In this document: positions 1,714-58,371 of the stretch, in pieces
How the letters are laid out: the number at the start of each line of letters is the position of its first letter
How positions within the stretch are numbered: the first letter of the stretch is position 1
Assembly: GCA_022578965.1 (NCBI GenBank)
Contig: MU400572.1
Span: 1 to 64,000, forward strand
From: Xylaria sp. FL1777
Taxonomy: Eukaryota; Ascomycota; Sordariomycetes; Xylariales; Xylariaceae
Direction: 5' to 3'
Length of the DNA: 64,000 bases
The notes under the pieces: model-generated
Databases searched by the model: none
The model's input: only the letters and a program-made list of their open reading frames with translations
Told to the model about the DNA's origin: nothing
Position numbers and translations under genes: made by a program

Positions 1714-2786
1714 TCAAGCTCGATATTCAACGACGTGACGACGGGTGACAGCTTGCATGGTATTGCTGCTCTCTTCGCCCTCGAATTTGAGGTTGACCTT
1801 TTCGCTCCCATCCATGCCCATCACCTCCGCTTTGTAGAACGTCGTCGTATTGGGATATAGAGCTAAAACAACCTTGCCTTCATCCAGTGGTGGCAGCACG
1901 GTGCCTTCTTTGGGGATGAGGATCATACTACTTGCACTGGTTCTGAAATCTTTTTGATGATGATTCTGGTTTTCGTCGAAATCGGCATCGAGGACCCTAT
2001 ATCTTCGGGATTTACCCTCGCCACGTACTTCCTGAACGATACCGAGGATCCAATCCGTCTGCTCGTTGCCCGTCGGCTTAGGTTTAAACGCTACCTCGTC
2101 GTCCTTGGCAAAGATCTGCTTGGTGCGAATTGGATTGGTAGCAGGGCCAGGCTGTGGCTCAGCACTACCAGCTTTGGCAGCTGGTGTTGACCTATCCGGA
2201 AATTTAGGAGGCACAGAATCGCTGCGATCCCCCTTGTTGCTACCTCCACCGCCACCTCCCATGCGTCGTGACACGCTGGGGTTGGGCGAAGGCATAGGTG
2301 AGTCGTCCGGATTGAAGTCCCACGGGTCTTTGCGCTGCCCCCCTAAGCGGGAAGTGGTCCCTTCCTGGTTTTCCTCGTTGTGCTTTGCAATGGCACGTAG
2401 TACCCTGATTTTCTCCATTTTCTCTTTGAAAGCCTGCGCTGTCGCTTCATTGGACTTGACCCCTTGGCGTGAAAGTTGATCAAGCTTGTCAAGGTCGTCC
2501 TGTGTCAGAGCTAGTTGTCGTAGTTGGCACGACTGATACAACATGATATGACACAGCATAGTGTGAGGGGTGACGTTATGGTGCACTTACTATTATTCTT
2601 CTTTTTTTCGGCACATAACTTATCCTGCTCGTATATAGCGGCCGTATTGGCAGAGCTCTGGTTGAACATGTCGATGAGTCCAGGCAACTGATCTTTAATT
2701 TCTTTCCAGGCGGCAAGCTCCTCGCCATGCTGGCTTATCTCACTATTGCGATTCGGCCCCCTACGCTGATTCACGCGTGATGACAT
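1714..2786 (-). CDS. SGF29: SAGA-associated factor 29 (SGF29), tandem Tudor protein
   Basis: Predicted 330 aa. SGF29 is a SAGA/ADA histone acetyltransferase subunit that reads H3K4 methylation through a C-terminal double Tudor domain. Exon 1 is 2591-2786 and exon 2 is 1714-2510, with an 80-nt intron (GTAAGT donor, CTAG acceptor) and a phase-1 junction. The N-terminal third is charged and helical, as in the family. A Ser/Pro/Gly-rich linker includes a run of six glycines. The Tudor region begins near DDEVAFKPKP and continues through DWILGIVQEV and RYRVLDAD to VLALYPNTTTFYKAEV and KFEGEE, the latter two supplying the usual aromatic cage residues. The start is the first ATG of the frame (2786); a longer reading would need a TTG. 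The gene is divergent from the phosphomannose isomerase gene. Confidence 0.9.
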
Positions 2787-2944
2787 GGTCACTACAGGTG
2801 ACGCAGACGATACCAAGGTTGGTATGAGCCCGTTCTAACAGATTAATAGACGAGTCCTTGTCCTATTGTTAGTATGTCTGTCTTTTTCTCGGTATACCTA
2901 GGGATAGATTGGGAAAAGTAGAACACATTTAGTACGACAATAAC

Positions 2945-2974
2945 GATGATGATGATAATAATAATAATAATAAT
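2945..2974. repeat. GAT/AAT trinucleotide microsatellite
   Basis: Four GAT-type units followed by about seven AAT units in the SGF29 upstream region. Confidence 0.85.
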
Positions 2975-3892
2975 GAGAGGATCTAGATTAAACAGAAACA
3001 AATGAATAGAAGAAGCCATAGAGTGCTAAGAGTTAAATAGATACTAGCATATTGTCCAGAGCAACCAATGAAAGTACTCACAACAAATTAAGCGGATTGG
3101 TATGTAATGGAATGGGTTGGTCAAGTTAGAAGGGCCCGAAACAATTATGACTTCCTGCTATAGACGAACTAGAGCACAAGACAGACACGATAGGAGGTAG
3201 AGGTAGGCGCTTGGATAAGAGGCGAGTATCCAGGAGGGCACAGGTGGACGAAGCTTTCTCAGCACGTAGTCTGGGTTGGCTAATTCCAGCGTGGAGGCAG
3301 CGTAGGGGAGACGGAATCAAAAAATTAGAGGAATCAATTATCGTCAGGTAAGGAGCTCATTTTGTAGCAGGAGCAAGAGAGGAGAGAGCCAGCTACTACC
3401 CAAGTAGTCTTTCGTTAGTATTCTCAAAGATCTAACGGAGGAAACAAAGCTTATGGTAATCGACACTATGATAGACAGCGAGTTTCCGCCGACGACAGAT
3501 GATCACATGATAGAGCGATCAGCACGGAAGGACACGGGTTGAACTTAAAAGGTGTATGCGTAAGAAGAAAGTACTGCTAGGGTTCCAAACATCAAAGAGA
3601 ATCTTGGAAGAGAGTGGTGTAAACCGGATGTGTAGATAAGCAAGTACCTACATGAGAAGGTTATGTATCTTTGGTGGTGTTTTGTTTTGTTGCTGATATG
3701 ACAATATCTCCAGTTCCATCCCAAATTGGCTAAGAGCGGTAAAGAGGAAAAGCCCGGCAGAACATATTTACGCAGCACAGTGCCTTGGTTTAATAAGGTA
3801 GAGCTGTCGCCAAATTAGGAAATATACTTTCCAATGACGTGGGGAGGTCTTGGACACGTGCAAAGCTGCCCCACTACCTATAGGCTCTACCT

Positions 3893-3990
3893 ACTTTACC
3901 CCTCGGTCCACAGGTACCTAAGTACATGCATACTCAAGTATGTACATATAGGTAGCTACCTTTATGTAGGTACCTATGTAGGTAACCAAC
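3893..3990. repeat. TAGGTA/TACCTA word cluster
   Basis: Several ACCTA and TAGGT units in alternating orientation, including GGTACCTA and TATGTAGGTA forms, between SGF29 and PMI. Confidence 0.65.
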
Positions 3991-4499
3991 CAACATGCAA
4001 TGGTGAACACGATGGCGGGGTAGGTGAGCCTGTAGCTACACACAACTTCAACCTCTGCTACGCCCCTTTCTCATATATCCCACATCACATCAACTAGTAC
4101 AGAAATATACCACCACACATTCCTTTTGCCGATAGTGTTTTCTGTCTTGTTTCTCTTCTGCAAACTTAGATCGTCCCTGTTCTATACAGTCCATCGCGCT
4201 AGGACCACAAAAGGACGGCAATCACCTATCGGTCAACCAATCGCGCTGAGTACACACAAAGTTGCCAGTGCATTGGATTGCTTGAGCTGGTACCGTACTG
4301 AAGAGAGGTTCCTTGTGTGTTTCCACCTCTCTCCGGATTGGCTGGGCTCTCATTAGTTTACTCTCGCCATATTTGCTAGACTTTTATTTCGACACAGTCC
4401 AACACCTATCTTGACAGGACCTCGTTCTCTTCCGAGCATTGCGTCAGCCGCACACGTTACCCAACGCGGCAAGAGAACAAAAGAAGCATCACTTCGACC

Positions 4500-9077: not shown

Positions 9078-10422
9078 TTAGAAGGCGTTGGAAAGTCCTC
9101 CAATATGACCATTTACTTCGCCACTACAACCTAGAGATTGATCGTTGGTATGCTTCGTGAAGACGCCTGGTCGCTCTACTTTCCATTCTGTGGTCTCGGT
9201 GCGCTCGAAAAATTGGACGTCCATTTCCCAAGCCTTGCTGTCAACAACGTCACCGCTTTCGAAGACTCGCAATAGTCTCCAATTGGTTCGAGAAGTAGCC
9301 GACAGCTTTAGTTGACGTATTAGGCCGGTGTAGGACGTCTCCCGTTGGTGCCACAATTCGCTAAGATCAATGTGTTTCATCTCATCGCTGTTTTCGAGAA
9401 TACTACTCTCCGGCTTGGGCGTGAGTTGCACGAACAAGCGGTCGATCCTAGGTAAGTGCTCTAACAGGATGCTAAAATGTGATGAGAGAGGGAATATCGC
9501 AATATAATTAAAGTCTACCATAGTCCGAGGAATAAGAGACACATTGTTGGGATATTCTTCACATCCTAGTAAAGCGCCTAATATGGATGGCGGTCTACGC
9601 AGATAGAACTCGTCCATGAGATAAACCTTATCAAGTCAGTCATCTCCTTACTAGCTTGCTGGTTCTCAGTGGTGATACCTTAGCAGATGAGCCTTCGTTG
9701 AGGAGAAGTGAAGTCCAAGGTCGAACTGTGAAAAGTGGACATGAAGCTACCGCTCTCGGTATGGAGGTGGAAGACGAAGCAAGACGGCGCGATGTAGGTA
9801 AGATAGACGGTGTGGCAGGCTGAATATCTGAGGACGTGTTTATAGATGGTCTGTCACTTTTAGTGCTGCTTTGACGAGTAGTCCTAGAAATGGAGAGTAT
9901 ATGATATGGAATATCAAATGACCCAGCATCATTGAGATAGAGCATGCATGACAGCAGCGACGCCAGAGTGGTAGGGCGAGCGAGGATGGTAAACCTTAAA
10001 GGGTCGATGACGGAGAATAGTTGATCCCATAGCCATTCAAGATCGACAGACCGTATTCGGGGAGCGACCTGATCAAATATAGGGACCGGATCATAGAAGT
10101 CAATGGCGAGAGTGAAGGTCATGACATTATGCGCCAGGTGGTTCTCGGTGAGAAACCGTAGTAGCGGGAGAGGGTTGAGGGTGAAGGCGCTCAAAGAATA
10201 GACACGAGGCTTCCATAAGATGTGGCGAAATAGACGCGGCATTATCAAAGAACGCCAGAACCTCGAGACAAGGGAGGCCGTCTTGAGGTAGGGTGTTGGG
10301 CGTCCAGCCTTGTTTGCGAGCAAATCGATGCTCGGTTCGTCATGAAGACGAACATCAGATGGGGCAGGTCCATCAATATATTTGAATATATGAAGAAGTA
10401 TCTCAGGAGGTACGACGTCCAT
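9078..10422 (-). CDS. F-box domain protein, putative
   Basis: Predicted 430 aa. The N-terminus PPEILLHIFKYI is an F-box core and KTASLVSRFWRSLIMPRLFR is its continuation. F-box proteins act as substrate receptors of SCF ubiquitin ligases by binding Skp1. The rest resembles the long leucine-rich tails of the expanded mould F-box families. Exon 1 is 9679-10422 and exon 2 is 9078-9626, joined by a 52-nt intron (GTATCA donor, GATAAG acceptor, ACTGAC branch-like word), phase 0. Without this intron the locus looks like two broken frames; with it, EGSSAK runs into VYLMDEFYLRRPP in frame. The start is the first ATG; upstream frame extends only from a TTG. The target substrate is unknown. Confidence 0.78.
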
Positions 10423-22939: not shown

Positions 22940-25644
22940 CACATGGGGTATGATAAACCTGGACAACACAAGTTTGAATAAATATAAAGGGGGGGAGGAT
23001 AGGACTACATGTACCACCTATAGATACCTATACTCCATCTCTCATCAGCGAAACTTAAGTAATGTACAGATAGTGTAAGGTAGGTAAGAGATAAGACACG
23101 AGGGTGAGCGAGAATGGAAGTCTTGGGTCAGTGGGTCAGATGTTGGATTTCGCATGTATCTAATGTATCCAGTGTACAAGTAGCGTAGGTAGCATAAGCC
23201 AACATGACTTATGCATAGGTACTTAGTGCAGGTAGACAGAGGACCTGAGGCAGAAGAGCGATTCAAGCGGTGGGGGCCAGACGTCAAAGTGTCAGATATC
23301 AGATATCAGATCTCAGAGGTGTTTCCCTATGTGTATGTGTATGTATAATTGCCGTGTAGGTACCACGGTACATCCACACAACGTGGGTATTACAGAGCAT
23401 ATTAGGTTTTCCAAAATAGTATAGTATTGAGTTACTTCGATGTCTGTTGATAGTCGTACATGTAATAAAAGAAATGCGCGAAAGTATGTGATGTTCCTTG
23501 ATGTAGGTATCTAAAGTTGTATTCTGTAGTTACACGTTTCGAGATCCCATGACAAGGTTAAAGAACCCATTACCGTGGATCAGATGCTGCACAATTGACG
23601 TACTGCACATACGCTCCTGTACACTTCAACATGTCATCAGGGGGGCTGTTCAAGAAAGGACGAGAGTTGGAACCGCCAAGCCGCTCCCGTAGCTTGTGTA
23701 CGACCCACCACTCTAACCCCACCAGTTCCGTTCCGTAGACGTGATTTGGCAGGAGAATATGCCGGGCACAGATCCCTACATGCGCCTTAATAGGTACAGC
23801 ATATCCATATAGCAGTACCTACAGTTAGTAGTAGGTAGTACCCAGTACCTACCGGTACTCTCTTACACACACACACACACACACACATTTATGCTGGCTT
23901 CATCCCTATTAGGTAGGTATTCATTAAATCTGTCTGCCTCATGGGGATTTTATTGCAATGAAATGCTATAAATGAGTCTTCTTCTAATTAAACCATCTTA
24001 GCAAAGGGCCGGAAGGATCACCTAAGTATGAGTACTGGTTTACTCGTGATTCCCCTTTTGAGGTCGAGCTACACACACATCATCACATAACGTGTAGAGT
24101 ATGCGTGGGTATATAAGCTTGGGTAACATTTTACGACAAGCACATCTTAAATACTTAACTACCTACTGCTATAGGTGTTTTATTTAGAGACTGGCGAATC
24201 GACCACCCGCGGCAATCTCGGCAATAAGTACACAAAGTATGCCAACCCGACTTGACTGGCAATATGAGATGTCATTTGGTGTGCTATTCGCTTGCGCACT
24301 AACACAGGTCGATTGTCGATTGTCAACACGATCGATACGATCAATAGATACTACGTGGTGCCGGTCAAGCATGCGAAAGCGTAGCATTCCGCCGAACCTG
24401 CACGATACTCATATTTCCACATGTGTCATGCAGGATGCGTCTGGCACCGACCCATCTCAAGTGGTTTGGGTTAGGTAGGTAAAAGTCTATGATAGGTACA
24501 GATAGCTATCAGTCTAGTTGTTAGTTATGTATGCATTTTTATGATGCGCTTAAAGTCTTGTGACTATCAGATGATATGTCTCAACATTCATTCCGGCAGG
24601 CAAGCTACGTTGATATATTCGAGCGGAGCGTTGAGCCTCAAGTGGTCGACTCAACAACCACGGAAGCCTACCTAATACCGGGCTCACTCTCTCCGAGATG
24701 TGGCGGTACCGCAAGAGCATCAACGTACAAATAAGCCTACCCGAACCGCAGCGTGGGCGAAGGGTTTCCCGAGCTTTCCAAACCCGGCATTTACCCATGA
24801 TACTAAGAAGCGATTCGCACAAGAAACTTTAGACCTCGAGACCTTTCTCCAGCTCTGCCCACGACAAACGCCAGACGGATTCTTGATGTGAGACAACAGG
24901 CATGACCCGCGGAGAAGTGTGCCAGCCAGCAATTCATGCAGCCAGGGTTTAGGTGTGCTGTGGCATGTTTGTGGCACAAGCGGCAGCATCTACACCATAC
25001 GCATAGTAATAACCTCACACAATAGGTATCGACCTTTAATCAGGGCCAACAGTGACGAGAATTAGGTCTTGGTTTGCTGAATAGCCGCCCTAGCCTTCAT
25101 CCCCTTGACGCTGCTTCCGTACACGGTCCCTCCTACATGCTCGACTGACTACTTAAGGCATCGTAGACGAAGTAACGAGCTGCGCAGCGTACCCTAAGCA
25201 AACATAGAGCTCAAAACGCGCTGAATAAGAAGGGTCGAGAAGCGTACAGTCTTTATAATTATAGTAAGCTTTCCCCTTGTTGCTCCTGGTCACTCCCGGT
25301 CAAAATTGGTCCTACAGGGAAATCTGTATCTATTGGTAATAAGTAGGCCTCCTCCTCTCAAAGACCAATTTTCCATTATCCAATTACTATAACAGGCGAC
25401 TTCTACAAATATCCCACAAGATCGGTTAGGATGGAAGATCCGGGACACACAGGTAAGGTTATACCAACTATGCAAGATGAACAATCATAGATGCAGGCTC
25501 TCATATCATGAATATATGCCTATCTATTATTACCCATCACAAAAGCACGGCATATGCCAGTCGACGAATACTATCACGGAAAGCACTCCTTTCTCAACCG
25601 TGCTCTTGAGGCATATATATATATACTGTTACCTTGTAGACGAT
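22940..25644. other. Intergenic, no gene recognised
   Basis: Includes the transporter promoter, a CAGATAT triplication near 23293-23318, a CA microsatellite and TAGGTA words at 23812-23855. Open frames around 24184-25018 overlap on both strands and lack family motifs. Confidence 0.5.
23865..23887. repeat. AC dinucleotide microsatellite
   Basis: About eleven AC units next to TACCTA words. Confidence 0.9.
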
Positions 25645-28210: not shown

Positions 28211-30541
28211 TTATCGAACAGCAACCTCAGTCTCTTGTCCAACGAAAGCTGGTAGCTCAGACTCAATATCCTGCCAAGTTTTATCGCCATCTACTATAGA
28301 ACGGATGGCGGCAAGGATTTTATCCTCACTAGCTCGGACCTGCTTCGTTGAATCTCTGTCTCTTAAGGTGACTGTCTTATCTTGAACAGTCTGGAAATCG
28401 ATCGTGATGCCTAGTGGTGTACCAAGTTCATCGTTACGGCTGTAACGCTTGCCAATAGATGCCGAAGAATCGTCAATGCGGTTAGAGATTCCAATCTTGC
28501 GGAGCTTTTGGGATAGCTCGTAGCAAAATGGCCGGAAGGCATCGCTGTTAGAGAGGGGCGCAATGATGACCTTGGTTGGCGCAACAGGAGGAGGGAACGA
28601 CAGAACCTGATACATGATAAGTGGAAAGAATTATGTAGGGTAAAGCCGTGATACTTACACCGCGGGCCTCGTCACCACCCTCGCTAGCGCGCGTCCAGTA
28701 GCAATGTTCCATGAGCGCGCTGGGAGTCAAGGCTTAGTAAACCATTTTAACATCCAGACGGGGTTCAATGAAAGAACTTACTAGAGTATTCTTCCGATGC
28801 CAAACGAGGGCTCAATCACATTGGGAACAAATTCCCGGATATTCTCTGTTCTCGTCCGCTTCTCGATCTTGATAACTTCCTTGGGCACAGACACCTTGCC
28901 ATCGCCAACGCCAGCAACTTCAATGATGAAAGAGCCGGCAGTGTCCAGGGCATTCGCAAGTTCTTCTCTCTGCGATTGGGTAGTCGCAATCAAAGCGGCC
29001 TCCACAACTCTGCCGTCTTTCTTGAAATGTGGCCCGAATTTCTTTCTGTCTAAATCTACCTCCCACTCTGTCACCTTAATTGGTTCAGGGAGGCGCTCAC
29101 GAACAATGAGTGAGGCACCCGTCTTCTTTGCATGTACGCTCAGGTCATATGCGCTGCGGTCTGCACAACCCACACATTCAATCCAGCCAAACGAGGTCAG
29201 TAATTCAGCGTCCCACTAGAGAACAAGGGCTAGATTAGTATCCGTCATCCTGAGAAATTGCGAAAGCGGTCTTGTAGGGAAGTAGCCCCCCCAGAACCGA
29301 GTATCCAGCATTTGGGAAGGGGGAATCTCATGATATGGATGATAGGGTAAGCCACTCACACAGTCGGCAGCATAATGGGCCATCTCATTTGCCATATGCT
29401 GTCTGAAACGAATCTTGGATTGGTCCACGCCGATCTTCTCAAGGAAGAGGTGGATGCGAGCCAAAAAATAACCAAGAGTCTCGTTATCCACGGTGCCATT
29501 TGCCACGGCTTGGCCAATAGTGACCTTTTGAACATCCGTCTTTCCAGAAAGCTGAGTTTCTTTATTGAGGAGCACCAGTTCAATATCTTTGACTTGGTTA
29601 AACCGCGGATGCTTCTTGCCTCCATGGGGATCTACAAAGTGCTCAATCTCCGCCATAAGGAACTCCCGTACGCGCAATAAGCCAGACCTGGGCGAGATTT
29701 CGTTTCGGTAGGATCTGCCAATCGAAGCAGAAGCGAAGGGCATCTGTTGCTGATTGAACTCGAGCAGCTTAGAGAAATTCAAGAACTGACCCTGGGCTGT
29801 CTCGGGGCGTAAGTAGCCCCGAAGATTACTACTCGGGCCAATGCTTGTCCCAAACATGAGATTGAAGTCAACCGGCGGCAATGGTAGAACCCCGGTCTCC
29901 GGGTTCTTAATGTTGTACTTCTGGATCAGCTCGCCGAGCTCTTGCGTGTTGTAATTGTCTATTTTGGCCAGGACTTCCTCATATTCTTGGACTACGGCAT
30001 CATCGAGCTTGAAAACCACAGCAGCGCCCTTGGTCTTGCGCTTCTTCTTGGGGTCATCTTCCTTTTGCTCTGTCTTTTGGCCACGCGCCACCTTGTCACC
30101 TTTGAGCCGGTTCTCAAGAATCTCCTCGATGAAGTGGTCGGCACGGAATATCTCGCCATTCTTAGGGTCTTTGCACATGGAATCGGCAAACTTGTCGACA
30201 TGGCCGCTCGTCTTTAGCACATCGTGGGGGGTCAGGACAGTGCAGTCGACCTCGAGCATGTCTTCCTCGAGGATGAAATGTTTGCGCCAGACATCGATAA
30301 CGCCTTGTTGGAGAGCGCAGCCGGGAGGGCCGTAGTCGTAGAGGCCAGAAACACCACCGTAAATCTATAGACGGCAATGTCAGGTTCTCGTGGTATGCCA
30401 GAGGGACAGACTAGGGACTAACGGCCGCATAGTGGTGCATACCTCAAAGCTCGGTGTATAGAACATGCGCCGCCTCAGCATAGCATCCAATATGGTGCGA
30501 TCGAGGGGCTGACCCTTCAGGGTGGTGGCCGTGGTCGTCAT
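28211..30541 (-). CDS. GRS1: Glycyl-tRNA synthetase (class II)
   Basis: Predicted 664 aa from ATG 30541, in five exons: 30443-30541, 29360-30364, 28782-29215, 28659-28719 and 28211-28606. Introns are 78, 144, 62 and 52 nt. It charges tRNA-Gly with glycine. Class II signatures are clear: [15 protein letters not shown] in the glycine pocket, [16 protein letters not shown] as motif 2, and [10 protein letters not shown] as motif 3. The anticodon-binding domain begins near [13 protein letters not shown] Lys-rich insert ([15 protein letters not shown]) sits between motif 1 and the pocket, as in other eukaryotic forms. The length agrees with yeast Grs1. The reading frame stays open upstream to another ATG at 30727, described separately. 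The gene is divergent from the MBP1-type gene. Confidence 0.96.
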
Positions 30542-30727
30542 GGCTGGGGAGAGGTTCTTGGACGATTTGGCGTACAGGCGGAGAGGAATGATAGATGGAG
30601 GAGGACAGAATGCGACGGATAGTTTTAGGGTGGATGACGATCTGGGTTGCCCGATGTGATCTAGGTAGTGATGATAGCTTTTACGACCAACTAATGAGGG
30701 TCGGGAAACGATGCGAAAGACCCGCAT
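30542..30727 (-). CDS. In-frame N-terminal extension of GRS1, putative mitochondrial presequence
   Basis: Sixty-two codons run without a stop from ATG 30727 into the cytosolic start at 30541. The extension begins MRVFRIVSRPSLVGRK and is rich in Arg, Lys, Ser and Leu, with a single acidic residue, the composition of a matrix-targeting signal. Yeast GRS1 makes cytosolic and mitochondrial enzyme from one gene by alternative starts; a similar arrangement is inferred here, but with a true ATG upstream. I saw no second glycyl-tRNA synthetase gene in this window. Confidence 0.6.
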
Positions 30728-31709
30728 CAACTCGACGGAACATCTGCAGAAGAGAGGGACAGATATTGGTAGGGCGGCAAAATCAACAAAAAAACAGGTA
30801 TACCAATGGAGGGGCACCGGTCGGGTACAATATCGGACTTTGTGCAGCTGCAAACCGTTTCTTGACTCATCTACATAGATACATCTGCCTACCAAATTCT
30901 GGATTGGCCAGTGGGTCTTTACTTGTAGCGCAGTGTACTAGGATTGGCTGATGCAGCAGCACACGTGACAGGCGCTAAACTTACTGTGGGTAGACCAGGT
31001 ACCCCGCCATTAGCGTGAGTGCTGTGCTTGCTTAATAAGGAGGGGTACTGGAAACCCGGTCGGGGGATGTACTGTACTAGATCCTAATGGGGTATGCATA
31101 TAACCGTCCGGACCGGATCTGATACCTGCATGTCATTTTCCCCAACCGGACTAGAACGGACTGTCTGCCAGCCGTTCCCTTTTCGGCATGAAACATCCCT
31201 GGCCGCTGGCCCCACCTGGTGGTACCTGGCAACGAACCCTGCTTCACGCCAAAGGCCGTCTTAAGTAAAGTTCTACTCATTAACGCGTGTTACGGTCGCG
31301 TCTCGGGTCGCTCACCAACTTCTCTCACCTCACTCTGAATTGGCTCACGGGTCGCGTTCTTGCTGACCCAAACTACCAAGTCACAATAGCGTCAGCCGAA
31401 CGTTGATTAGCAGAGGCACACAGCATGCAACTCCATCCTCCATAATTCCAGTCGCAATTGAGCAATACCAGTTAAATTGACAGCACTATCTCCTTCTGCA
31501 GGCCCCTGTTCATTTCTTCTATACCCAGCCTGGCCGCCCTCAATTGTCCCACGTCTGTTCTTGTTCTAATTTTACGGCCTCCTTCGAGCACAGTGTTACG
31601 TTTCTTTCATGCATATCTCCGGTTCATCAATCCAAGTAGCAGCGCACATACACACGCGCGCACACGTCTATATACACCGACAGAGCGAGAGACAGACAAT
31701 ACCGCCAGC
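30728..31709. promoter_or_regulatory. Divergent promoter region of GRS1 and the MBP1-type gene
   Basis: About 980 bp between opposed start codons. An ACGCGT hexamer (MCB, the site of Mbp1-type APSES factors in yeast) lies at 31283-31288, about 420 nt before the MBP1-type start, with further GTCGCGT-like words at about 31294-31301 and 31350-31358. CCAAT-like words (as ATTGG) occur near 30901-30905 and 30951-30955. ACGCGT also occurs at several other places in the window, so this assignment is weak. Confidence 0.4.
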
Positions 31710-33899
31710 ATGGTTCAGTCAGCTGCTGCTGCGAAACCTGCTGCCGAGCCTGGCATATATGGTGCCACATACAGCGGTGTAAGTTGGTATTCCTTGATCT
31801 TGCTCCTGCACTCCCTCGTCTGCTCATATGGGTCTATCCTGAACCGGCCATGACGTCCGGCTAATCACGGATGTGTGTGTTCAGATACCTGTGTACGAAT
31901 ACCAATTCGGCCCAGAGCTTAAGGAACATGTAATGCGCCGGAGGGCAGACAATTGGATCAACGCCACCCATATCCTCAAGTGTGCCGGCTTCGACAAGCC
32001 TGCCCGCACTCGCATTCTCGAGCGCGAAGTCCAGAAAGATGTCCATGAGAAGATCCAAGGTGGTTATGGCAAGTACCAGGGCACATGGATACCCTTAGAG
32101 GTAGGAGAACAGCTTGCCCAGAGGAATAATATCTACGACCGCCTCCGACCTATCTTCGAGTACACCCCAGGTGGAGAGAGCCCGCCGCCCGCTCCTCGCC
32201 ATACAAGCAAGCCCAAGGCACCTCGGAAACCTGCGGTGCCAAAGTGGAATAATAGTACGTGTCTGTCCGACGCTCATGATGAACGCTATTTCACGAGTCA
32301 AGCACCTCTAATATGATTGCGATAGACCCTCCACCCCCTCCACCGCAACCGCCGAGAGAAGAATTCGAGGCCCATAGTCAACCAGTCAACGAAGATGATA
32401 CACCCGACAATGTTACTGTCGCTTCCATGTCCTACATGGCGGAAGACGACCGCCACGACCTGTCGCATTTTTCAACCGGCCATCGCAAGAGAAATCGGGA
32501 CGAGACTATCCAGGACCTCACTGAACAACAGCATTCCGTCTATGGTGACGAGCTTCTTGATTACTTCCTCCTTTCCCGCCAAGAGGAGCCCACTTTCCGA
32601 CCCGAACCTCCCCCAAACTTCCAACCCGACTGGTATATTGACTCTGAAAGGCATAGCGCTCTCCATTGGGCAAGCGCCATGGGGGATGTGGATGTCATCA
32701 AGCAGTTGAAGCGATTTGGGGCAAATCTAGGAGCTCAAAACTGTCGAGGCGAGACGCCCTTCATGCGGTCTGTTAATTTCACCAATTGTTACGAGAAGCA
32801 AACGTTTCCTGCCGTGATGAAAGAACTCTTTGACACAATCAGCATCCGAGATGACACGGGGTGTACTATCATTCACCACGCGGCCATCATGAAGAGTGGC
32901 CGTATGCAAAGCCAGTCGTGTTCCCGTTATTACCTAGACAGCATCTTGAACAGGCTTCAGGAAACTCACGATGCCAACTATGTCCACAAGCTGTTGGACA
33001 TACAGGATCAAAACGGCAACACTGCCCTACACCTGGCTGCCAAGGTAAAGGCAAGGAAATGTGTGCGCGCTCTTCTTGGTCGTGGGGCTGCTTCAGACAT
33101 TCCTAATGTGGAGGGTATCCGTGCCGATGAACTTATCAAGGAGTTAAATGCGACCAGAAATATGAGAGAGCGAGTTCCACAGCAGCGGTCTTCATCACCT
33201 TTTGCTCCGGACTCTCAGCGCCATGTTTCGTTTCGCGACGCGTTGTCCGATTCCGCCACTAAGCTTGCTGTATCATATAACTCAGAAGCTGCTAACACTA
33301 TCCAAAATAGGATCACACCTTTGGTTTTTGAGAAATTTCAGGATTTAGCTCGCAATTATGAGGAGGAGTGGAAGGACAAAATCGAAGCCGAGAACGAAGC
33401 CCGTCGGTTATTAGGCAACACACAGAACGAATTATCTGTCGTGCGTCAGCACATAGCAGATCTTGAGGCCGGCCTGGAGACACCAGAGGAAGCCGCGAAA
33501 GCAGTCAGTGATTCCGTTATAGCTCAGGATCAAGTCTTGTCTCTACTAGCGAGCCAGAGCCGATACCACATACAGGCCTCGGTGGAGCAGAGCCTGGCGC
33601 TTATGAATGGGGATCAAGGTGAAGACTCGTATGAGGATAGGCTCAGGCTTGCCCACGAACTCAACGAGCTCCTTCACAGGCAAAGGCAAGCAGAACAAGA
33701 ATATGTTAATGCGCTGGGCCATTCCGGTACTGGCGAGAAGATTGACAAGTATCGTCGACTATTAAAGCAGTGTCTAGATCGTCAAGATGCAGAGAACCTC
33801 GACGCAAACTTGGATGACCTGATCGATATGATGGAGGAGGAGCGGAGTGAAGGAGCGGTAGCACTACCTGATCAAGGAGAGCCTATGATGCTGTGTTAG
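31710..33899 (+). CDS. APSES transcription factor, Mbp1-type (MBF subunit) with ankyrin repeats
   Basis: Predicted 670 aa in three exons: 31710-31778, 31885-32254 and 32326-33899. It corresponds to the DNA-binding subunit of the MBF complex that drives G1/S genes through MCB elements. The APSES/KilA-N domain spans residues 24 to about 125, with [29 protein letters not shown] and the [14 protein letters not shown] wing. A polyproline linker and a bipartite basic HRKRNRD patch follow. Ankyrin repeats lie near residues 253-290 ([19 protein letters not shown]) and 367-402 ([20 protein letters not shown]). A long coiled coil with heptad-like spacing (about 470-620) probably pairs with a Swi6-type partner. 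The order of domains and length match Mbp1/Res family members. The APSES sequence fits Mbp1 better than Swi6, which lacks DNA binding. The upstream frame opens only from GTG, so ATG 31710 is used. Confidence 0.95.
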
Positions 33900-49300: not shown

Positions 49301-52300
49301 CATAGCTGCGGAACCTATAGTACTGCGTAGGTACCGGTGCTCGGAAGACGAAGCCGGACTAAACAGGATGGCTGCATCACGTGTTTGGTATACACTGCGG
49401 AAAGGAGGTATATAGTTTTGTATTGATACTAGGTTGTGTACACGGTTGGTTAGTACATGTAGTTAGCGAGTCATAGTTGAAGTGGCGTGTGACGAACTGA
49501 CGTCAATGCCATGCGCAATGAACCACAGTCAATAGTTCATACGAATGAGGAAATAGTAAAGAACAAAAAAGCAAAGCGGTGGCTGGGAGGAGCGATCATG
49601 AGCTGCGCCGCCGGTGACACAGGCAGAGCACATGGACGGTGTGTCTAATACTGAGTACCAATACCTACAGATAAGATACCTACCTACCCATGTATCCAAT
49701 TGCGCCGTTTCCCGGGACACACACCTATCTATTACTTACAGGACTTATAGGACCAACTTACTCACTCACTTCCTTACTGAACTACCTGCCCATCAATCAA
49801 TTCGCTCTGAGGGAATCACCATTGGCCACCCTCGTCGAGAGATAAGCCATTCTAGAAGAGTGAGACAAGATTTTCTGCAGCGAGGCGTTGGCAGCGTGAC
49901 CAAGATCTGCCTCGCAAGCTACATTAGACTAGATGGTGTAGCAAATGAGATGAAAGGGATGGAAGGAAGGCTGCTGACGGTTGGAAATGGTGCCACGTTA
50001 AGGATGCTCTAGTAGAAAGTAGTGTGGGAAAAGGAAAAAGGCCTACTTACGCCTCTGCCGGACTACCTACTAATACTGTGTGTGTACTGTACATGCTTCT
50101 CAGTAATACAGTACGCTTGTGAGTAGGTACATCGTACACACCAGTGGCGCTTAGAGGCGAATCAGAACTAGGATATGTATGTTAAGCGCCGTCTATGATT
50201 AGCCATGGTTTGTTCGTTTTGCCGTTCTGCCCTTTTGCATGCAGCCTGCAGATCGGCTGCAGTCGTGCGACAACGAAGATGTGCCCCGACTTACATGTAC
50301 GTAGTAAACCTATTATATCCGCCCTATAGAATATAGTACCGGTAGTCGAGGGGTTGCGCTAGGAGTCATGCCAAGCAACACTACCTAATTTGTACGATAA
50401 GCCCCCTTTTCTACTGCGTAGTTTGTATACCAGTATGTTGGCGGTGCTTCACCATTTTGGCCCTCAACCTGAAATACGTTGGAACAGTGGCTTTCGGAGT
50501 GACAGTCTCATTGAATGGATTGTCTCACATTGTTTTTTTCCAACACGTACACAACGCGCGTTGATGGCTCGAGGCACACGTAAACCGAGACTGGCCTGCC
50601 CTGCTAGCTCGGGAATTAATTAGCAGTACATTTCTCCTCTTGGTAGTATTTATGGTGCTGTTGATCTACTAACATAATACGTGGGTATACAGATAGCTAC
50701 AGGCAAACAAGAAAGACCATCTCGGCCTACGTATATGTAAATACAAGATAGATTCACTACAGAAAACAAGGAACAGGAAACGGTACGAATTGTGAACGCT
50801 TAAACATGGTACTGCCTACTATGGTCGGATATACATAGTAAAGTCTGTAGTGGGACTACTACTCTGGACACTATCTGTCATACTCAGTATGCAGTATATA
50901 CTACATACTGTAGTGCTACATACCTACTATAGCGGAATTCAGAGACCCTTCCAGGACCTTTTACCCTTTCTAGAACTCTTGGCATATATATCTCGGGCAA
51001 GAAGGTACCTAAATGCTTCTTTCAATATGCATAAGCACGCAGAAATTAATGCATCTGCACAGCTTAAAGTACTATCTACAGGGCAAATATATCCTTGACT
51101 ACGCATACGCAGTAGGCAGGTGGGTGGATAATTTCACAGACATACGGCCAGGCTCTGTGGTATTTTGCTTGGTTGGATTAAAGTTTCAGCCTTCTTTAGA
51201 AAAGACCTGAAACTCTTAGGGGCAAGATTTCGCACAGACATTCCGTAACATATTCCAAGTAGGTACCTACAATGAATGTAGAGAATGTGACACAGAATAT
51301 AGACTCACGCTAGAACAGCCCCTGATTTTGACATTTACCTGGCGTACCGTACTGTTAGAGGAACACGTGTACATACACCAGGCACTTCAGTACATGTAGT
51401 TCTTGACCATTACAGCCTGTAAGTAGCCTGGGTCGTTAATCTTCCTACATATACGTGCACGCTGCACAGCGGGCGGCCAGAGTTCTAGCCCTGAGTCACT
51501 TCTGCAGGTTGATAGGTATCTATAGTAGGTTAACTTAGGTAGCCATGTTTCAATTAAGGTTGCATGCAATGAGCATCATATTTATGACGGCCTTACAGGG
51601 AATGAGTAGGTAGATATTGCAGTTATCAATTCATTGATTAAGAAAAACAAGTTCAAAGCCTGGTCTGGACAACGGTTCTACAATAGTGTAGTGATTCTTT
51701 ACCCAGAGAGTTGAAGGTTGCATTGTCACCTAGTCCTTGCCTGGTTTTGACATTGCACTCATCCTTACAACTCGTGATCTAGGTTTGATCTACGTACCTA
51801 CGGCTAGGTAGGATTAAAACAGGGGTAGCCCCATACCCACCAGCAGTGTACTACCGGTATCTCTACTATTGATACCTAGTAACACGCTTTCACACCGGAC
51901 CTAACTTTATCTTTTACCAGCTTAAGTATAAAAATTGTACTATAAACATAATCTTTTCTTACCGTTATCTGTAATAATGGCTACAAAAGTTAAAGGTCAT
52001 CGGTATTCCTCTATCTTGTGTCAAGGAGTTTCTAGGGTCCCTTCTCAGAAATGGAGCTTATAGCCGTTCTTGGTGTAGCGTAGGAAAAGCTTGTGGAGGT
52101 TGCAGGTGATTAAACTAGGTTGGGATAAAGAGGCATGAGAGGTTTGCACCCCTTTAAGGTATGCAAGTAGAAGTATAAACCTAAGTAAATATCATTAATG
52201 AGAGACATATATGTATATATACTACGAATTAATAATACATTACATACTCAGTAGTATAGCTAGACTTTCTTGCCTTTTCAATGTGCTATAACCTGTGTAT

Positions 52301-53003
52301 ACTTATCTATATTTATGAAAGATGAAAGATGAATACTGTAATACTCCGCAGGACAAATTATGGTGTTACACTGTGTGCTTTGCAGGTACCTGAGTATAGA
52401 TGATGGGAAGACGGTAGCGCCCTGAAAGGACTCCTCAAAATTTCTGTGAGATATGGTTGGTCATACTCATATGCCCCGCTACTTTCCGCTTAGCACATGG
52501 TCTTGATTGGCTGAATGTCAGTTCGACCCAATGCACACTCTTCGACAAGTCATCCAATGAGCATGGTTGGTTGGCCCCAAAATGTGCTCCGTGCAGCTAT
52601 CCTTGTCATCACAGCCCAATTCATGAATGCATAATCTACCCCTGGAGACAGTACGGATTCACACTGTATTTATTTCATTACCGCAGCCCAAATTAATAAT
52701 ACAGCGAGAATAACCATTGTTGATTCAACACCTCTAGAGCTTACGGTTGACTAGAACACAGTGTTGAAAACATGAAGCCTGACCTCCTTTCTCTTTTGGG
52801 GTACCAATTGCAATAGGGACCACTGGTTGTGGTGCGCCCATTTGCTACAGCACCCTCCACTAGCGTTGCTGCTCACTGGGGCCAGCATCTATTTTGGCCT
52901 TCGTCCCCATTCTCCAGCCTCCAGTCACTGCTCCGGCCTTGTACCGTAATACAGTCACTGGGTACCTGCCTAGGTACGCTACAGCACAGTAGGGGCCCAC
53001 ATG

Positions 53004-54653
53004 CTCTTTTTGTAGGGCAGTCCTTTCCGTCGGCGGGCGACCCAATTCATCGTCCACACAGCGGCGAAACCCTTCCATTTCTTTATCCAAATCTCCCAGG
53101 CCCTTCTTCTCCTTCCCATCCCCTCCTCCCACCGACCGCGCGACCCTGTTACCCATTTCTCTTGCCACAAACCCGCCCTTCCTTTATCCTCCCTCCTTCT
53201 CTCCCCTCTTCAACCTTCGGGTGCTATCCTTCTTAAGATTTCTTCTTTTGTGTGCCTGTGTGCCGTGGTGTGCGCGTGTGCTTGTGCCCTTGCCAGTCGT
53301 CCTTCACCGCCGTGTTGCCCATCGCAGCTGTTAATCGTTTCACCAACAAAAAACAAGACCAATTTCGTTGGCGGCTTCGCTTGATAACCTCGCAAGTACT
53401 ACCCATTGCCAACACGCTCCCAAGATTCCCACCTCGTCGCAACATCTAGAGACGAACCTCGTTATCGTTTTCGCCTTTCGACAGCCTAAGAAAAGAGGAA
53501 CACTTCGGCAGACCGAAGAAGAAAAAAAAAAGCCAGCAAGACTACATCACCATCCCAGGAGTTTCTGGACGACTCAATCCCTATATTTCACCACTTAATT
53601 CTTGTACAGTTTTCATCATTTCGACTTCTGTTTCTGTCATATTCGATTTACATTGCATTGCATCGCATTACTTGCCGTGTCGCACATACCAGTCCGTATT
53701 TTACAGCCTTTAATCTGCAAACGCGTCGTTGCCAACAGACAGACTACGCAAGCCGGAATACACCATCAACGACAACAAAGAGAAAGAGATAGAGAGTCGA
53801 GCCTGAGGGTTCATTGCGTCAAAGAAGGAAGAGGATCATACATCGTCACTATCCTTTTCTCTCCGAGACAACACTTCTGTACGACTACTTTGACCGAGGA
53901 CAAAGGGCAACTGACGAATCCGTTACTGTCCACCTCTTCGGTCGTTTCCCAGCCACGGTTCGCTGTTCTCAGGGAGCTCTCGAGCCAACCGGGAAACTTC
54001 GACCCTTTGATATCGTGCTCGCTCTGGACACACGATTCCCCGTCGTCACCGGTCGCTCTTTCTTCACGGTTGTTTCGATCCTGACAATCATACCGGCCTT
54101 CCTTACCTGGATCACTTGGTTGTTGTGTCTTCCTATCCTGCTTAAGGCGCAACAACAGTACCATCCTCGCTCATTCCGACATCGACCTGTTCGCCCCTGA
54201 TAGGCATCTTTTAATATCATCACCAGACAGTATTTTCGCTGCGCACTAACATTTGTCCGCCCCGATTGTCTTCTGTTTCTTGTCACAGCTTTCCCATCCT
54301 GGGCACGCCCGTCTGCTTTCTTGGATTCTTCGGATCGCATTTCCGAACCAACTACTACGTTTGATACGAGCATCGATCCCATTGAAAATCCTTAGGCTAC
54401 CATTGGAGCAGAAAAGCACTAGCTGCTTGACCATACTACTGCCCTAATTGTGCTACCGTAATTATCAACAGGCATTGTTTGGGTTTTACCTACCTCATTC
54501 CCACAACTTAGTTGATTGTAATATTCATCGATCGTCCCGTCATTGAGTGGCTGTCGTCCATTCATTCATTACTTAGATTTCACTTCTAATTCCCTCTTGA
54601 CCGCTTCGGCACGGCTGGAGGAGTTGCACAGATACTCTCTTCTCCCCTTGAGC
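53004..54653 (+). promoter_or_regulatory. Long ATG-free 5' leader and promoter of the Gln-rich protein gene
   Basis: Read line by line, these 1,650 nt contain no ATG on the + strand. The nearest upstream ATG is at 53001 and the next is the start codon at 54654. About 26 would be expected at even base composition, and the reverse-complement word CAT occurs about 40 times. The stretch from about 53090 to 53215 is strongly pyrimidine-rich and is the likely promoter or start-site region, so the leader may exceed 1.4 kb. The depletion is specific to the sense strand. That fits selection against upstream start codons in a scanned, largely unspliced leader. Confidence 0.7.
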
Positions 54654-56342
54654 ATGCACACCGGTGGTCTTGCTCAAATGTCGCACAACGATTTCACTCC
54701 CACAACCGGCCTGGGCATGCCTTCTGGAGGTCTGGCATCGCGCCGCGGTGGGCAGAACATCAAACCGCTCTCCTTTGACGCCATCAAGTCTTCAGCTGAC
54801 GTCCAGGATAATGGAGTTCCTACTCCGCGGACGAGCCGAGGTCACCTGCTTGCCGGCCTGAGGACGGCCCCCAAATCCGCTACTGCTACCACCTTCGCTA
54901 ATGCCGGCATGTCGCCTCACGTGTACGGTAGAAATAACGGCATGGCTGAGAACATGTATGGCGGCTCCAATCACATGTACAATGCGCCCAAGACGTCGCT
55001 TCCTCGCATGGCGACCCAGCAACAAGGAGCTTACAACATGGCGGGAATGTCGGGCATGGGTCATCAACATTACACTCCTGAACAGATTCTAGCGCCTCCT
55101 GAGTTTCACCTAGATGAGCAAGCTCAAGACCAGATGGATCCTGGTCTGTATGCTCAGTTGGTCACAGCTAATCTGTACCTGGCTCAGCAGCAGCAACGGC
55201 TCCAACAGCAGTTGCTCAATGTACAGGCGGCCGCTCAGCAATTCCAGGGCTTGAACTTGAACGGACAACCAACGTTGCAACACCAGATGGCGTTTCAGAA
55301 TCTTGTTCAACAACAGCAACAACTTCAGGCAATGCAACAATCGATCAAGGCACCTGTCTCTGTTTCGCAGAAACTGTTTACGTATTATGACCCCAACACT
55401 CGAATCACCTACCTTGTTGACCCGACTACTGGTCAGATGCAGCCTAGTTTCTACGAGAATCAGCCCAGCACCCCTCAAAATGCCTATTTCCAGCAACCGA
55501 ACCAAGGCACGCCGCGTGTGCAGGTGTCTCCCCCTCCTACGGAGAACACTGCACCGACCCAGCGCACAACCTCGCCTCCTAAGAAACCAGAGATGATGGT
55601 TGAGCCGACACCCCTGCCGCCTCCATCCGCCAACGCTTTTCGACGCGGCCACAAGAAATCGTCGTCATTGGCAAACGTCAACAAAGGTCTTACCGTTGCT
55701 TGTGACGAGCCACTTAACCCGGCCGGACCAAAGACTGCCTCATTACCGCTGACTCCTCTGCCCAACGGAGGCTATGGGCCGGGCCAAGCTCGTGCTGGTG
55801 AACATCCTATCCGTCAACCTCGTGGACCTCCTGCCCTTGACGAGCTCCGTGCCAAACCCACCGCCAAGCACGAAGGAAGCAAAAATTTTGCAGCACGGAC
55901 ACGCCGATCCGCCGTTCACAATCTCATGAAAGCTGGTGTCGTACGACGCAAGGGGACTGGCAGTAGTTGTGGTAGTATGAGCCCTGTCTCAGAGACAGCT
56001 GAGGAAGTGGGAACTCCACTCACCGACAACGAATCTGACTCTGGGCGTAGTGGCTCGGGTAGCTTGTCTGGCGATGCTGAACCTAGCCTTGCAAGCTCTC
56101 GAACCTCTGCAAGTGGCAGCTGGGGAGCTATCGGCTCAGATCGTCCCAGCTCACGCCAGAAATCGCGTAGGAGCGTTGACAGCCAAGCTAGTACTGGCGA
56201 AGGTGACAACAGTTTTGCCAGCGTCTTCAAGCACGGATCTCAGCGTCAAGCCAAAGTGGACGGTCAATCTGGGCAGCGGAAAGCCCCTAGGCTCGTGCTC
56301 ACGAGCGCAGAAAAGCGCAAAGGAGGGATCCCTGTGGCTTGA
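54654..56342 (+). CDS. Glutamine-rich low-complexity protein, unknown function
   Basis: Single-exon frame of 562 aa. ATG 54654 is the first ATG; a shorter start at 54678 (MSHNDFTPTT) is also possible. The N-terminus has NIKPLSFDAIKSSADVQ and a short TPRTSRGHLLAGLRTAPKS stretch, then a Met/Gly/Asn-rich part. A Gln-rich coiled region runs over about residues 175-245 (YLAQQQQRLQQQLLNVQAAA). A more ordered-looking LFTYYDPNTRITYLVDPTTG follows. Then come proline-rich segments and a basic ARTRRSAVHNLMKAGVVRRK, which could bind nucleic acid. The tail is Ser/Gly-rich. No catalytic domain. The composition suggests an RNA- or chromatin-associated regulator or condensate-forming protein, but that is inference. 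The very long ATG-free leader suggests translational control. Confidence 0.8.
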   Translation: MHTGGLAQMSHNDFTPTTGLGMPSGGLASRRGGQNIKPLSFDAIKSSADVQDNGVPTPRTSRGHLLAGLRTAPKSATATTFANAGMSPHVYGRNNGMAENMYGGSNHMYNAPKTSLPRMATQQQGAYNMAGMSGMGHQHYTPEQILAPPEFHLDEQAQDQMDPGLYAQLVTANLYLAQQQQRLQQQLLNVQAAAQQFQGLNLNGQPTLQHQMAFQNLVQQQQQLQAMQQSIKAPVSVSQKLFTYYDPNTRITYLVDPTTGQMQPSFYENQPSTPQNAYFQQPNQGTPRVQVSPPPTENTAPTQRTTSPPKKPEMMVEPTPLPPPSANAFRRGHKKSSSLANVNKGLTVACDEPLNPAGPKTASLPLTPLPNGGYGPGQARAGEHPIRQPRGPPALDELRAKPTAKHEGSKNFAARTRRSAVHNLMKAGVVRRKGTGSSCGSMSPVSETAEEVGTPLTDNESDSGRSGSGSLSGDAEPSLASSRTSASGSWGAIGSDRPSSRQKSRRSVDSQASTGEGDNSFASVFKHGSQRQAKVDGQSGQRKAPRLVLTSAEKRKGGIPVA

Positions 56343-57284
56343 TTTACGTTCTTCCCAAAGTCAACTTTACGCAATCACGACAGCACGCTTCCGATGTCTT
56401 TGCCTTTTCATGATTTCAACCCCAGAAAGGTAGATCTTCTCTGAGTGGTTCTTGATAGATGATGGATTGGACTGGACGGTATTGGACTCGGAAAATCGAG
56501 AACGGCTCTTTCCTTTCGTTTAGCAATATGATTTTGCTCTGAACCGAGTTTCTGGATTAACAAGCGAGAGACGTGCCCATGCGCGTCTGCTACGCTATGG
56601 ATATCGCTCCAGCCCTTGCTTCTGTAGCACATTCTTCAGTGGACGGACCCCTGGGGACTAAGGTCATCCTGGCGGGACCTTCTTACATACCCGCTCTATA
56701 CTTCATATCATTCCTTTACCAGGGGCTGTTTGTCTTTTCTCGGTTTATACGCGTTTGAGATAGAATGGTTATGGGGCATCGCACTGACGACTCTTGTGGA
56801 TGCGCTCATTGGCGTAGGTGTGCAACCGCTCAACGCCAATTCTATGCGCCTCTAACAGAGAGGTAGCTAGTATAAAATAGCTTAGGTAGTGATCAATGGC
56901 ATCGCACAAATTGCAAGCCAAAACAAACTATCCTGTGTACCGTGTCCCCTGTCCTCTATCCCCTGTCCTGTGTTCGGCGTCGGGAATCGGATTAGTCGTC
57001 TCAAGTCTAAAAGCTATCTCCGGAGTTTCTATTATTAGGTTACGACAGTACGCAATGACAATGTCGTTGAACCACATAATATGCCGCAGCTTGCTAGAAG
57101 AAGAACGGCTTGAGAAGTGGGTAAGTAGTTCGCGCGGAGATAAGAGCTTCTCGCGGCTAAATATTTGAAGTTTAAATTGTATATAGGAAAGCACCAACGT
57201 TACTGGTGCAAAGAGTCTCAACCACAAAACAATTCTTTCAAAGCCTTCAAGTTATTCCCGTCATCGAAAATAAAGTAGTCGACA
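56343..57284. other. Intergenic between two + strand genes
   Basis: 3' region of the Gln-rich gene and upstream region of the dehydrogenase. A CCCTGTCCT duplication lies at about 56945-56972. No gene seen. Confidence 0.55.
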
Positions 57285-58371
57285 ATGGGGTGGGAGTATA
57301 AGACGGTTCTCATGGTAGGCTGTACGGCCGGCCTCGGCGTAGCGATGGCTGAGCGCATGATCGAACATGGCAGTTTCGTGATCGCCGTGGGCCGTCGCAA
57401 GGACAAGCTCGACGACTTCGCTGCCAAACACGGTCCTAACAAGGTAGCGACGTCGCAATTTGACATCACAGATTTGGACGGGATCAAGTCATGGACTGAA
57501 GGGTGAGTCAGGTCATTCCGAAGCCACTTACATACAATTCATTCCTTTTTCATGTATACACACACACAGTGACATATATATGTGTGTATATCCAGGAGAA
57601 AGAGTCCGATAAAACCCAGCTAACCAGTACGTATCTCTAGGATCACCAAGGCTCACCCAACGCTCGACTGCGTGGTTCTGAACGCAGGAATCCAGCGCGG
57701 ACTCAACTTCACGCAGCCGGCGGCCATCGATCTGGCGCAGGTGCGCAAGGAGATTGACACGAACTACACGTCGTACGTGGCGCTGACGGCGGCCTTCCTC
57801 CCGCATCTACAAGCGCGGGCGCCAGCCGCGAGCGCACTCGTCGCCGTCTCGTCCGGTCTCGGACTCGTCCCGCTGCCGCGCTGCGCCAATTACTGCAGTA
57901 CCAAGGCCGCGCTGCACGCCCTCATGTGGTCGCTGCGCGCACAGCTTGCCGCAGACGACGCCAGCCGACATGTCAAGGTCATCGAGATTGTGCCGCCCGC
58001 TGTGCAGGTATGTTGTGCTACGCCCATGTCACATCCCGTCGTGTTTTCGTGCCTAGCGAGCATGCCTTCGCCCCCCTTTTTTTACCCCTTATACCCATCG
58101 ATATTCCTGCAGGTTCTTCCTAGACTAACCGCCATTCCCTCTCCAGACAGAGCTGCACGAGCTGCAGGACGACCTGCGCGAAGCCGGATACGCGAACATG
58201 GGTATCACGATCGAGGAGTACATGCGGGACTGCTGGGCAGGGCTGGAACAGGGCGACGAGGAGATCCTGGTCGGCCCCGTCAAGGAGAATTTCGCGAGGC
58301 TCGAGGACGGCCGACGCACTGCGTTCGGCCACTTCCTTGCTGCCATGGCGGCTGGGAAGTTGCCCAAGTGA
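57285..58371 (+). CDS. Short-chain dehydrogenase/reductase (classical SDR)
   Basis: Predicted 269 aa in three exons: 57285-57502, 57641-58007 and 58147-58371. Introns are 138 and 139 nt, with a CTAACC branch word in the first. It is an NAD(P)-dependent oxidoreductase with a Rossmann fold. The cofactor motif reads VGCTAGLGVAMAE, the structural motif VVLNAG replaces NNAG, and the catalytic residues are Ser143/144 (VAVSSGLG), Tyr157 and Lys161 (NYCSTK). It resembles the DltE-like group of uncharacterised cytosolic SDRs; the substrate cannot be predicted. The C-terminus (ILVGPVKENFARLEDGRRT) is typical of that group. Exons 2 and 3 are much more GC-rich, especially at third positions, than exon 1 and the neighbouring genes. 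Confidence 0.93.

Follow-up and report, generated by a model that had tools for sequence, protein, structure and literature searches.

Upstream of a single-frame gene of Xylaria sp. FL1777, 1,650 nt pass on the sense strand without one ATG, which raises the question of whether composition, hidden coding content, splicing or selection on a long mRNA leader accounts for this loss. The locus was analyzed within a window of 64 kb (the whole stretch of DNA under study) that opens contig C67 of an assembly of 58.7 Mb in 588 contigs. According to our evaluation, the stretch is probably for the most part the 5′ untranslated leader of the mRNA of this 562-aa gene, mostly unspliced and kept free of AUG for scanning.

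ATG is missing from one strand only

Direct counting on the plus strand between 53004 and 54653 returned 0 ATG and 41 CAT, in agreement with the earlier note on this DNA (no ATG, about 40 CAT). The ATGs at 53001 and 54654 flank the stretch, leaving a gap of 1,653 nt between them. Its composition is 31% C, 29% T, 22% A and 18% G, and because it is C/T-rich, the random expectation of about 26 ATG given in that note turned out too high: mononucleotide shuffles predict 19.2 (minimum 6, n = 2,000) and dinucleotide shuffles a mean of 15.6 (sd 3.2). Within 5,000 dinucleotide shuffles, a control that had been suggested along with the original observation, the minimum was 5 and zero was never reached. 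The proposed one-sided loss of ATG beyond base composition therefore stands, and dinucleotide composition fails to account for it as well. With a z score of −3.9 in these shuffles, ATG ranks lowest among the 64 trinucleotides, followed by CTC at −2.1. CAT lies slightly over its expectation (41 vs 32.3; 1.6% of the dinucleotide shuffles get there), near-cognate triplets are not purged (222 left in the stretch) and CTG is found at expectation (26 vs 23); the depletion is specific to AUG. Stop triplets on the same strand are low too (35 vs 50.6 expected, a value reached by 0.1% of 1,000 shuffles), which is not explained by AUG purging and counts against it.

The gap was ranked on both strands of a genome sample of 264 kb, made up of the window together with 100 kb from contig C1 and another 100 kb from C5, a control that also covers the selection of the stretch for being extreme. 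It was the longest of 9,325 ATG gaps, with a runner-up of 690 nt. The fewest ATG in any 1,650-nt stretch outside the target was 9 (10,362 overlapping stretches, plus-strand starts between 51300 and 54700 of the window left out), and the 92 composition-matched stretches (expectation 13 to 18) contained 17.7 on average, with the same minimum. In front of 46 ORFs (non-overlapping, ATG-started, at least 200 aa, introns ignored, target included), the ATG-free run had a median length of 56 nt (95th percentile, 190 nt); the longest apart from that of the 562-aa gene measured 218 nt. These controls confirm the ATG-free stretch as real and statistically extreme.

The stretch is single copy, as a DNA search of its own genome returned only the stretch itself. 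A repeat or transposon was rejected on this basis and on the lack of tandem repeats in 51500–57500. Searches for DNA relatives in viral and prokaryote contigs gave 10 and 29 pattern matches, respectively, with zero confirmed. Two local observations are recorded here. At 53655–53668 of the plus strand, three near-tandem GCAT units occur (GCATTGCATCGCAT), where GCATNGCAT has 2 overlapping matches vs 0.02 in shuffles. Outside the target, the most ATG-poor 1,650-nt stretch of the sample is located around 2551–4200 of locus L014 (C5:122551-124200, plus strand; 9 ATG vs 16.3 expected), and the 690-nt gap ends within it, at C5:123603.

The stretch ends at a start codon shared by homologues

That the ATG at 54654 directly opens the gene, as proposed, was verified: 562 codons follow up to the stop at 56342 (Table 1). 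A second in-frame ATG is present at 54678. The protein has 1,695 homologues at E 0.001 or better among 7,989 candidates scored. Among the 120 matches listed, the best named ones belong to Xylaria (94% identical), those of Colletotrichum, Fusarium and Verticillium are about 60% identical, and most of the names given read "hypothetical" or "uncharacterized" protein. The start Met was compared in 34 of these 120. It is the same in 28, lies two residues earlier in 2 and near the second Met in 4, and no N-terminal extension of more than two residues upstream was found in the 34. As the start Met is common to 28 of the 34 homologues, 54654 represents a sound start codon. The attribute "regulator-like" in the earlier note, derived from the Gln-rich composition alone, gained no support: the only Pfam match was far below the cut-off (E 0.37) and PDB sequences gave no match.

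Table 1. Coordinates of the ATG-free stretch, its predicted elements and the gene downstream (positions within the window)
Feature	Position	Strand	Reading	Basis
ATG-free stretch	53004..54653	+	probably mostly mRNA 5′ leader; 5′ end probably promoter	counts, shuffles, gap ranking
Pyrimidine-rich block	53101..53240	+	putative promoter/transcription-start edge	C/T runs
Predicted hairpin pair (lead only)	53892-53943, 53944-53997	+		folding z scores
Start codon of the 562-aa gene	54654..54656	+		A at position −3; 28/34 homologues start there
562-aa gene	54654..56342	+	uncharacterised Gln-rich protein, single frame	ORF, homologue search

A probable long leader kept free of AUG for scanning

The simplest account of these data would be cap-dependent scanning through an AUG-free leader. 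A new AUG within the leader would trap scanning 40S subunits ahead of 54654; selection would therefore purge AUGs from the sense strand only, leaving near-cognate codons and the opposite strand untouched. In favor of this reading we count 0 ATG vs 15.6 expected, the undepleted CAT and the remaining near-cognates, the end of the stretch exactly at the shared start Met, pyrimidine runs at its 5′ edge and the AUG-poor stretches in front of two further genes of the genome, one WOPR and one velvet. The most likely cause is an ordinary one, with selection acting against upstream AUGs in a leader of unusual length.

The extent of the leader can be bounded by summing the local expected ATG number from the 5′ side of the stretch. 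Since the absence of ATG can be put down to chance no further than 53581 (5%) or 53715 (1%), a leader shorter than approximately 1.07 kb or 0.94 kb, respectively, is unlikely. At the 5′ edge, C/T runs of at least 12 nt accumulate (27 overlapping matches vs 5.4 in shuffles; 14 positions are listed, at 53101–53119 and 53187–53193) and C+T amounts to 0.73 in 53150–53299. This pyrimidine-rich block may represent the promoter edge, and transcription would start in or just after it, with a best guess of 53200–53350. The resulting leader RNA, mostly unspliced, would probably span 1.3–1.45 kb.

The same ATG-free stretch could also yield a shorter mature leader, if a 5′-UTR intron took out much of it and happened to lack ATG by luck. 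An intron scan delivered candidates of 410 to 1,039 nt ending at 54288, with weak donors: the branch site at 54246 (CACTAAC), upstream of the acceptor at 54288, is a good one, the top-scored pairs join this acceptor to GTGTGC donors at 53250–53276 (1,013–1,039 nt), and a further pair joins it to a GTACGA donor at 53879 (410 nt). A canonical GTRNGT donor is absent from the stretch, which speaks against splicing and is a weak argument when taken alone, because only 1.2 are expected. Where about 3 ATG are expected, none may be present by chance, but an intron of 1 kb would be expected to carry approximately 8.5 (chance of zero about 2e-4) and the 410-nt one approximately 3.8 (about 0.02). We regard removal of much of the stretch by splicing as rather unlikely.

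Folding, RNA motifs and coding content

If the AUG-purged leader is accepted, it might still act as a translational switch, in which a regulated barrier, i.e., the hairpins at 53892–53997 or bound proteins, would set the number of 40S subunits reaching the start codon. Folding of 15 windows of 120 nt was ordinary except for 53884–54003 (z −3.61) and 54104–54223 (z −2.05), and a finer scan at the same length gave −3.27 at 53880 and −2.88 at 54060. Over the 161 nt of 53870–54030, however, the z score is just −2.26 (4 of 200 shuffles as good), and scores under −3 occur in 8 of 512 background windows across the 64 kb. The predicted hairpin pair is thus better treated as a lead than as a finding. 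If it forms, the predicted structured spot at 53884–54003 would hinder scanning, and it is counted against an AUG-purged leader. Elsewhere in the window, very strong folding is predicted on the plus strand at 10251–10370 (z −6.05) and 24251–24370 (z −5.23; 25 shuffles each).

Motifs for RNA-binding proteins of the Ssd1-like (CNYTCNYT), Puf and Whi3 types occur in the stretch at chance level only. No Rfam model matched 51000–57500 at E up to 1, and ARAGORN (bacterial code) found no tRNA in the 64-kb window. In support of a switch, one study describes the Candida UME6 and WOR1 leaders as lowering translation, possibly via structure (PMC6034079), and in Histoplasma long leaders are reported that go along with repressed translation and lack ribosome density (PMC4503680). 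Weighing these precedents against the modest z score over 161 nt, the background windows and the motif and Rfam results, a regulated barrier appears improbable. A broader version, in which an AUG-purged leader of 1.3–1.65 kb would serve as a uORF-free scanning switch via the hairpin pair or bound proteins, for a Gln-rich and possibly condensate-forming protein, and would be kept across Xylariales or wider, is a speculation that we rate as clearly unlikely.

Hidden coding content, be it an upstream ORF that initiates without AUG or additional residues at the N-terminus of the protein, could be suspected because two TTG-started frames stay open for 160 and 128 codons, stop triplets are fewer than in shuffles and the main frame remains open as far upstream as 54546. 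After training on 22 ORFs (30.5 kb), codon scoring gave values from 0.13 down to 0.0 in the CDS frame, none above zero for 300-nt windows of the stretch, and the best-scoring open piece in six frames reached 0.08 over 102 nt; the power of this test is modest, as the last part of the true CDS itself scores 0.0. The stretch is without clear coding signal. Near-cognate starts in good context (purine at −3, G at +4) are not in excess, which gives no indication of non-AUG uORF control: CTG 2, TTG 0, GTG 1 and ACG 2 were counted vs 1.6, 2.0, 0.9 and 1.5 by chance. Two protein searches with the leader frames yielded zero matches at E up to 10 among 5 and 85 candidates; their weight is low, since leader frames of this type seldom enter protein predictions. 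Together with homologues reaching at most two residues upstream, the codon scores and the two empty protein searches disfavor protein-coding or non-AUG uORF content, and we judge it very improbable. Taking composition into account brings the expected number of ATG down from 26 to 15.6; even so, the idea that a C/T-rich, G-poor stretch just happens to have no ATG is practically negligible in view of the minimum of 5 in the shuffles, of 9 in the 92 matched stretches and the 690-nt runner-up gap.

Regarding the earlier interpretation of a long, mostly unspliced and AUG-free leader acting as a possible translation-control system, the ATG loss beyond composition, the lack of a clear coding signal and the shared start Met agree with its first part. 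The translation-control system gains no support, with near-cognate starts and the three motifs at chance and ordinary folding over most of the leader.

AUG-poor upstream stretches of regulator genes in the same genome

For comparison, 25 loci (L023-L047, several of which overlap or repeat one gene) were collected from families chosen by us, namely KilA-N, WOPR, velvet, GATA and PUF. The WOPR and velvet leaders presented (L025, L028, L033, L034, L035) were picked after looking. Before the start of a WOPR gene (L034; C134:85800-89300, minus strand), 1,722 nt contain 3 ATG and 28 CAT, with 12.3 ATG expected. In front of a velvet gene (L035; C28:145500-148500, minus strand), 529 nt contain 0 ATG and 16 CAT with 7.7 ATG expected, the zero being by construction, because the edges were set at existing ATGs. 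Like the target, both genes are preceded by an AUG-poor stretch, but their ATG-free runs are shorter (580 and 532 nt, respectively). At the other 20 loci, for which gene starts were not located individually, the longest ATG gap on either strand ranged from 179 to 428 nt; at the velvet locus L030, two gaps measuring 421 and 325 nt adjoin each other on the strand that carries the match. If the WOPR rate held for long leaders of this genome in general, zero ATG in 1,650 nt would occur in about 1 of 18 cases, and the target may therefore sit at the far end of a class instead of standing alone.

At 31873–33899 on the plus strand, the window itself hosts a KilA-N/APSES-type DNA-binding match (31921–32136) in a short frame, followed by a 528-aa frame that we take to be ankyrin-containing, as in a cell-cycle regulator of the Mbp1/Res type. 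Frames at 28211–30895 on the minus strand presumably belong to a glycyl-tRNA synthetase split by introns.

Implications

If the leader is transcribed as a whole, it would provide a natural test of the distance that 40S subunits scan without AUG in a filamentous fungus. This contrasts with Neurospora, a studied species of the group, whose leaders are described as AUG-rich (PMC7049704). The data further suggest that, where a fungal genome lacks annotation, ATG loss restricted to one strand could point to long leaders and delimit transcription starts. Selection can be tested directly on the DNA of relatives: with 222 near-cognates being one change away from ATG, approximately 74 × d new ATGs are expected at a neutral divergence d, i.e., about 7 at 10% when equal rates are assumed.

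Comparison with known fungal leaders

Leaders of the GCN4 type are long, fungal and able to regulate, and they depend on upstream AUGs. The target has none, and a uORF-controlled leader was rejected, since it requires AUG-started upstream ORFs. In Candida, uORFs are common, with more than 1,200 potential uORFs reported in more than 400 genes (PMC7849906). Neurospora and Cryptococcus are described as having long leaders rich in AUG (PMC7049704), which speaks against purging as a general requirement. Predicted leaders in Histoplasma, also an ascomycete, range from 0 to 1,652 bp; the long ones are defined by RNA-seq, and some carry AUG and ribosome density (PMC4503680). With respect to scanning, yeast reporters indicate that the length of an unstructured leader matters only modestly, whereas structure inhibits strongly (PMC12415969).

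In terms of length, the target can be likened to the longer Candida leaders of UME6 (3,041 nt), WOR1 (2,978 nt) and CZF1 (2,071 nt), as listed in PMC6034079; this likeness of 2–3 kb leaders concerns length and not AUG content, and the lowered translation ascribed there to UME6 and WOR1 sets these two apart from the target. No fungal AUG-free leader of the target's length was recognised in the literature searched, and printed cases may exist. The closest counterpart is the Candida albicans EFG1 leader of approximately 1.1 kb, which lies ahead of a regulator gene and whose one AUG uORF is reported by the same source as absent in strain SC5314 (PMC6034079); in that strain it is apparently AUG-free, as judged from this statement. 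EFG1 resembles the target in this long and apparently AUG-free leader before the gene, and the ATG-free length of the target exceeds it. EFG1 differs in having mapped transcript ends and a measured effect of the leader on translation. Set beside these systems, the target looks like an extreme example of an established type of leader and not like a new mechanism.
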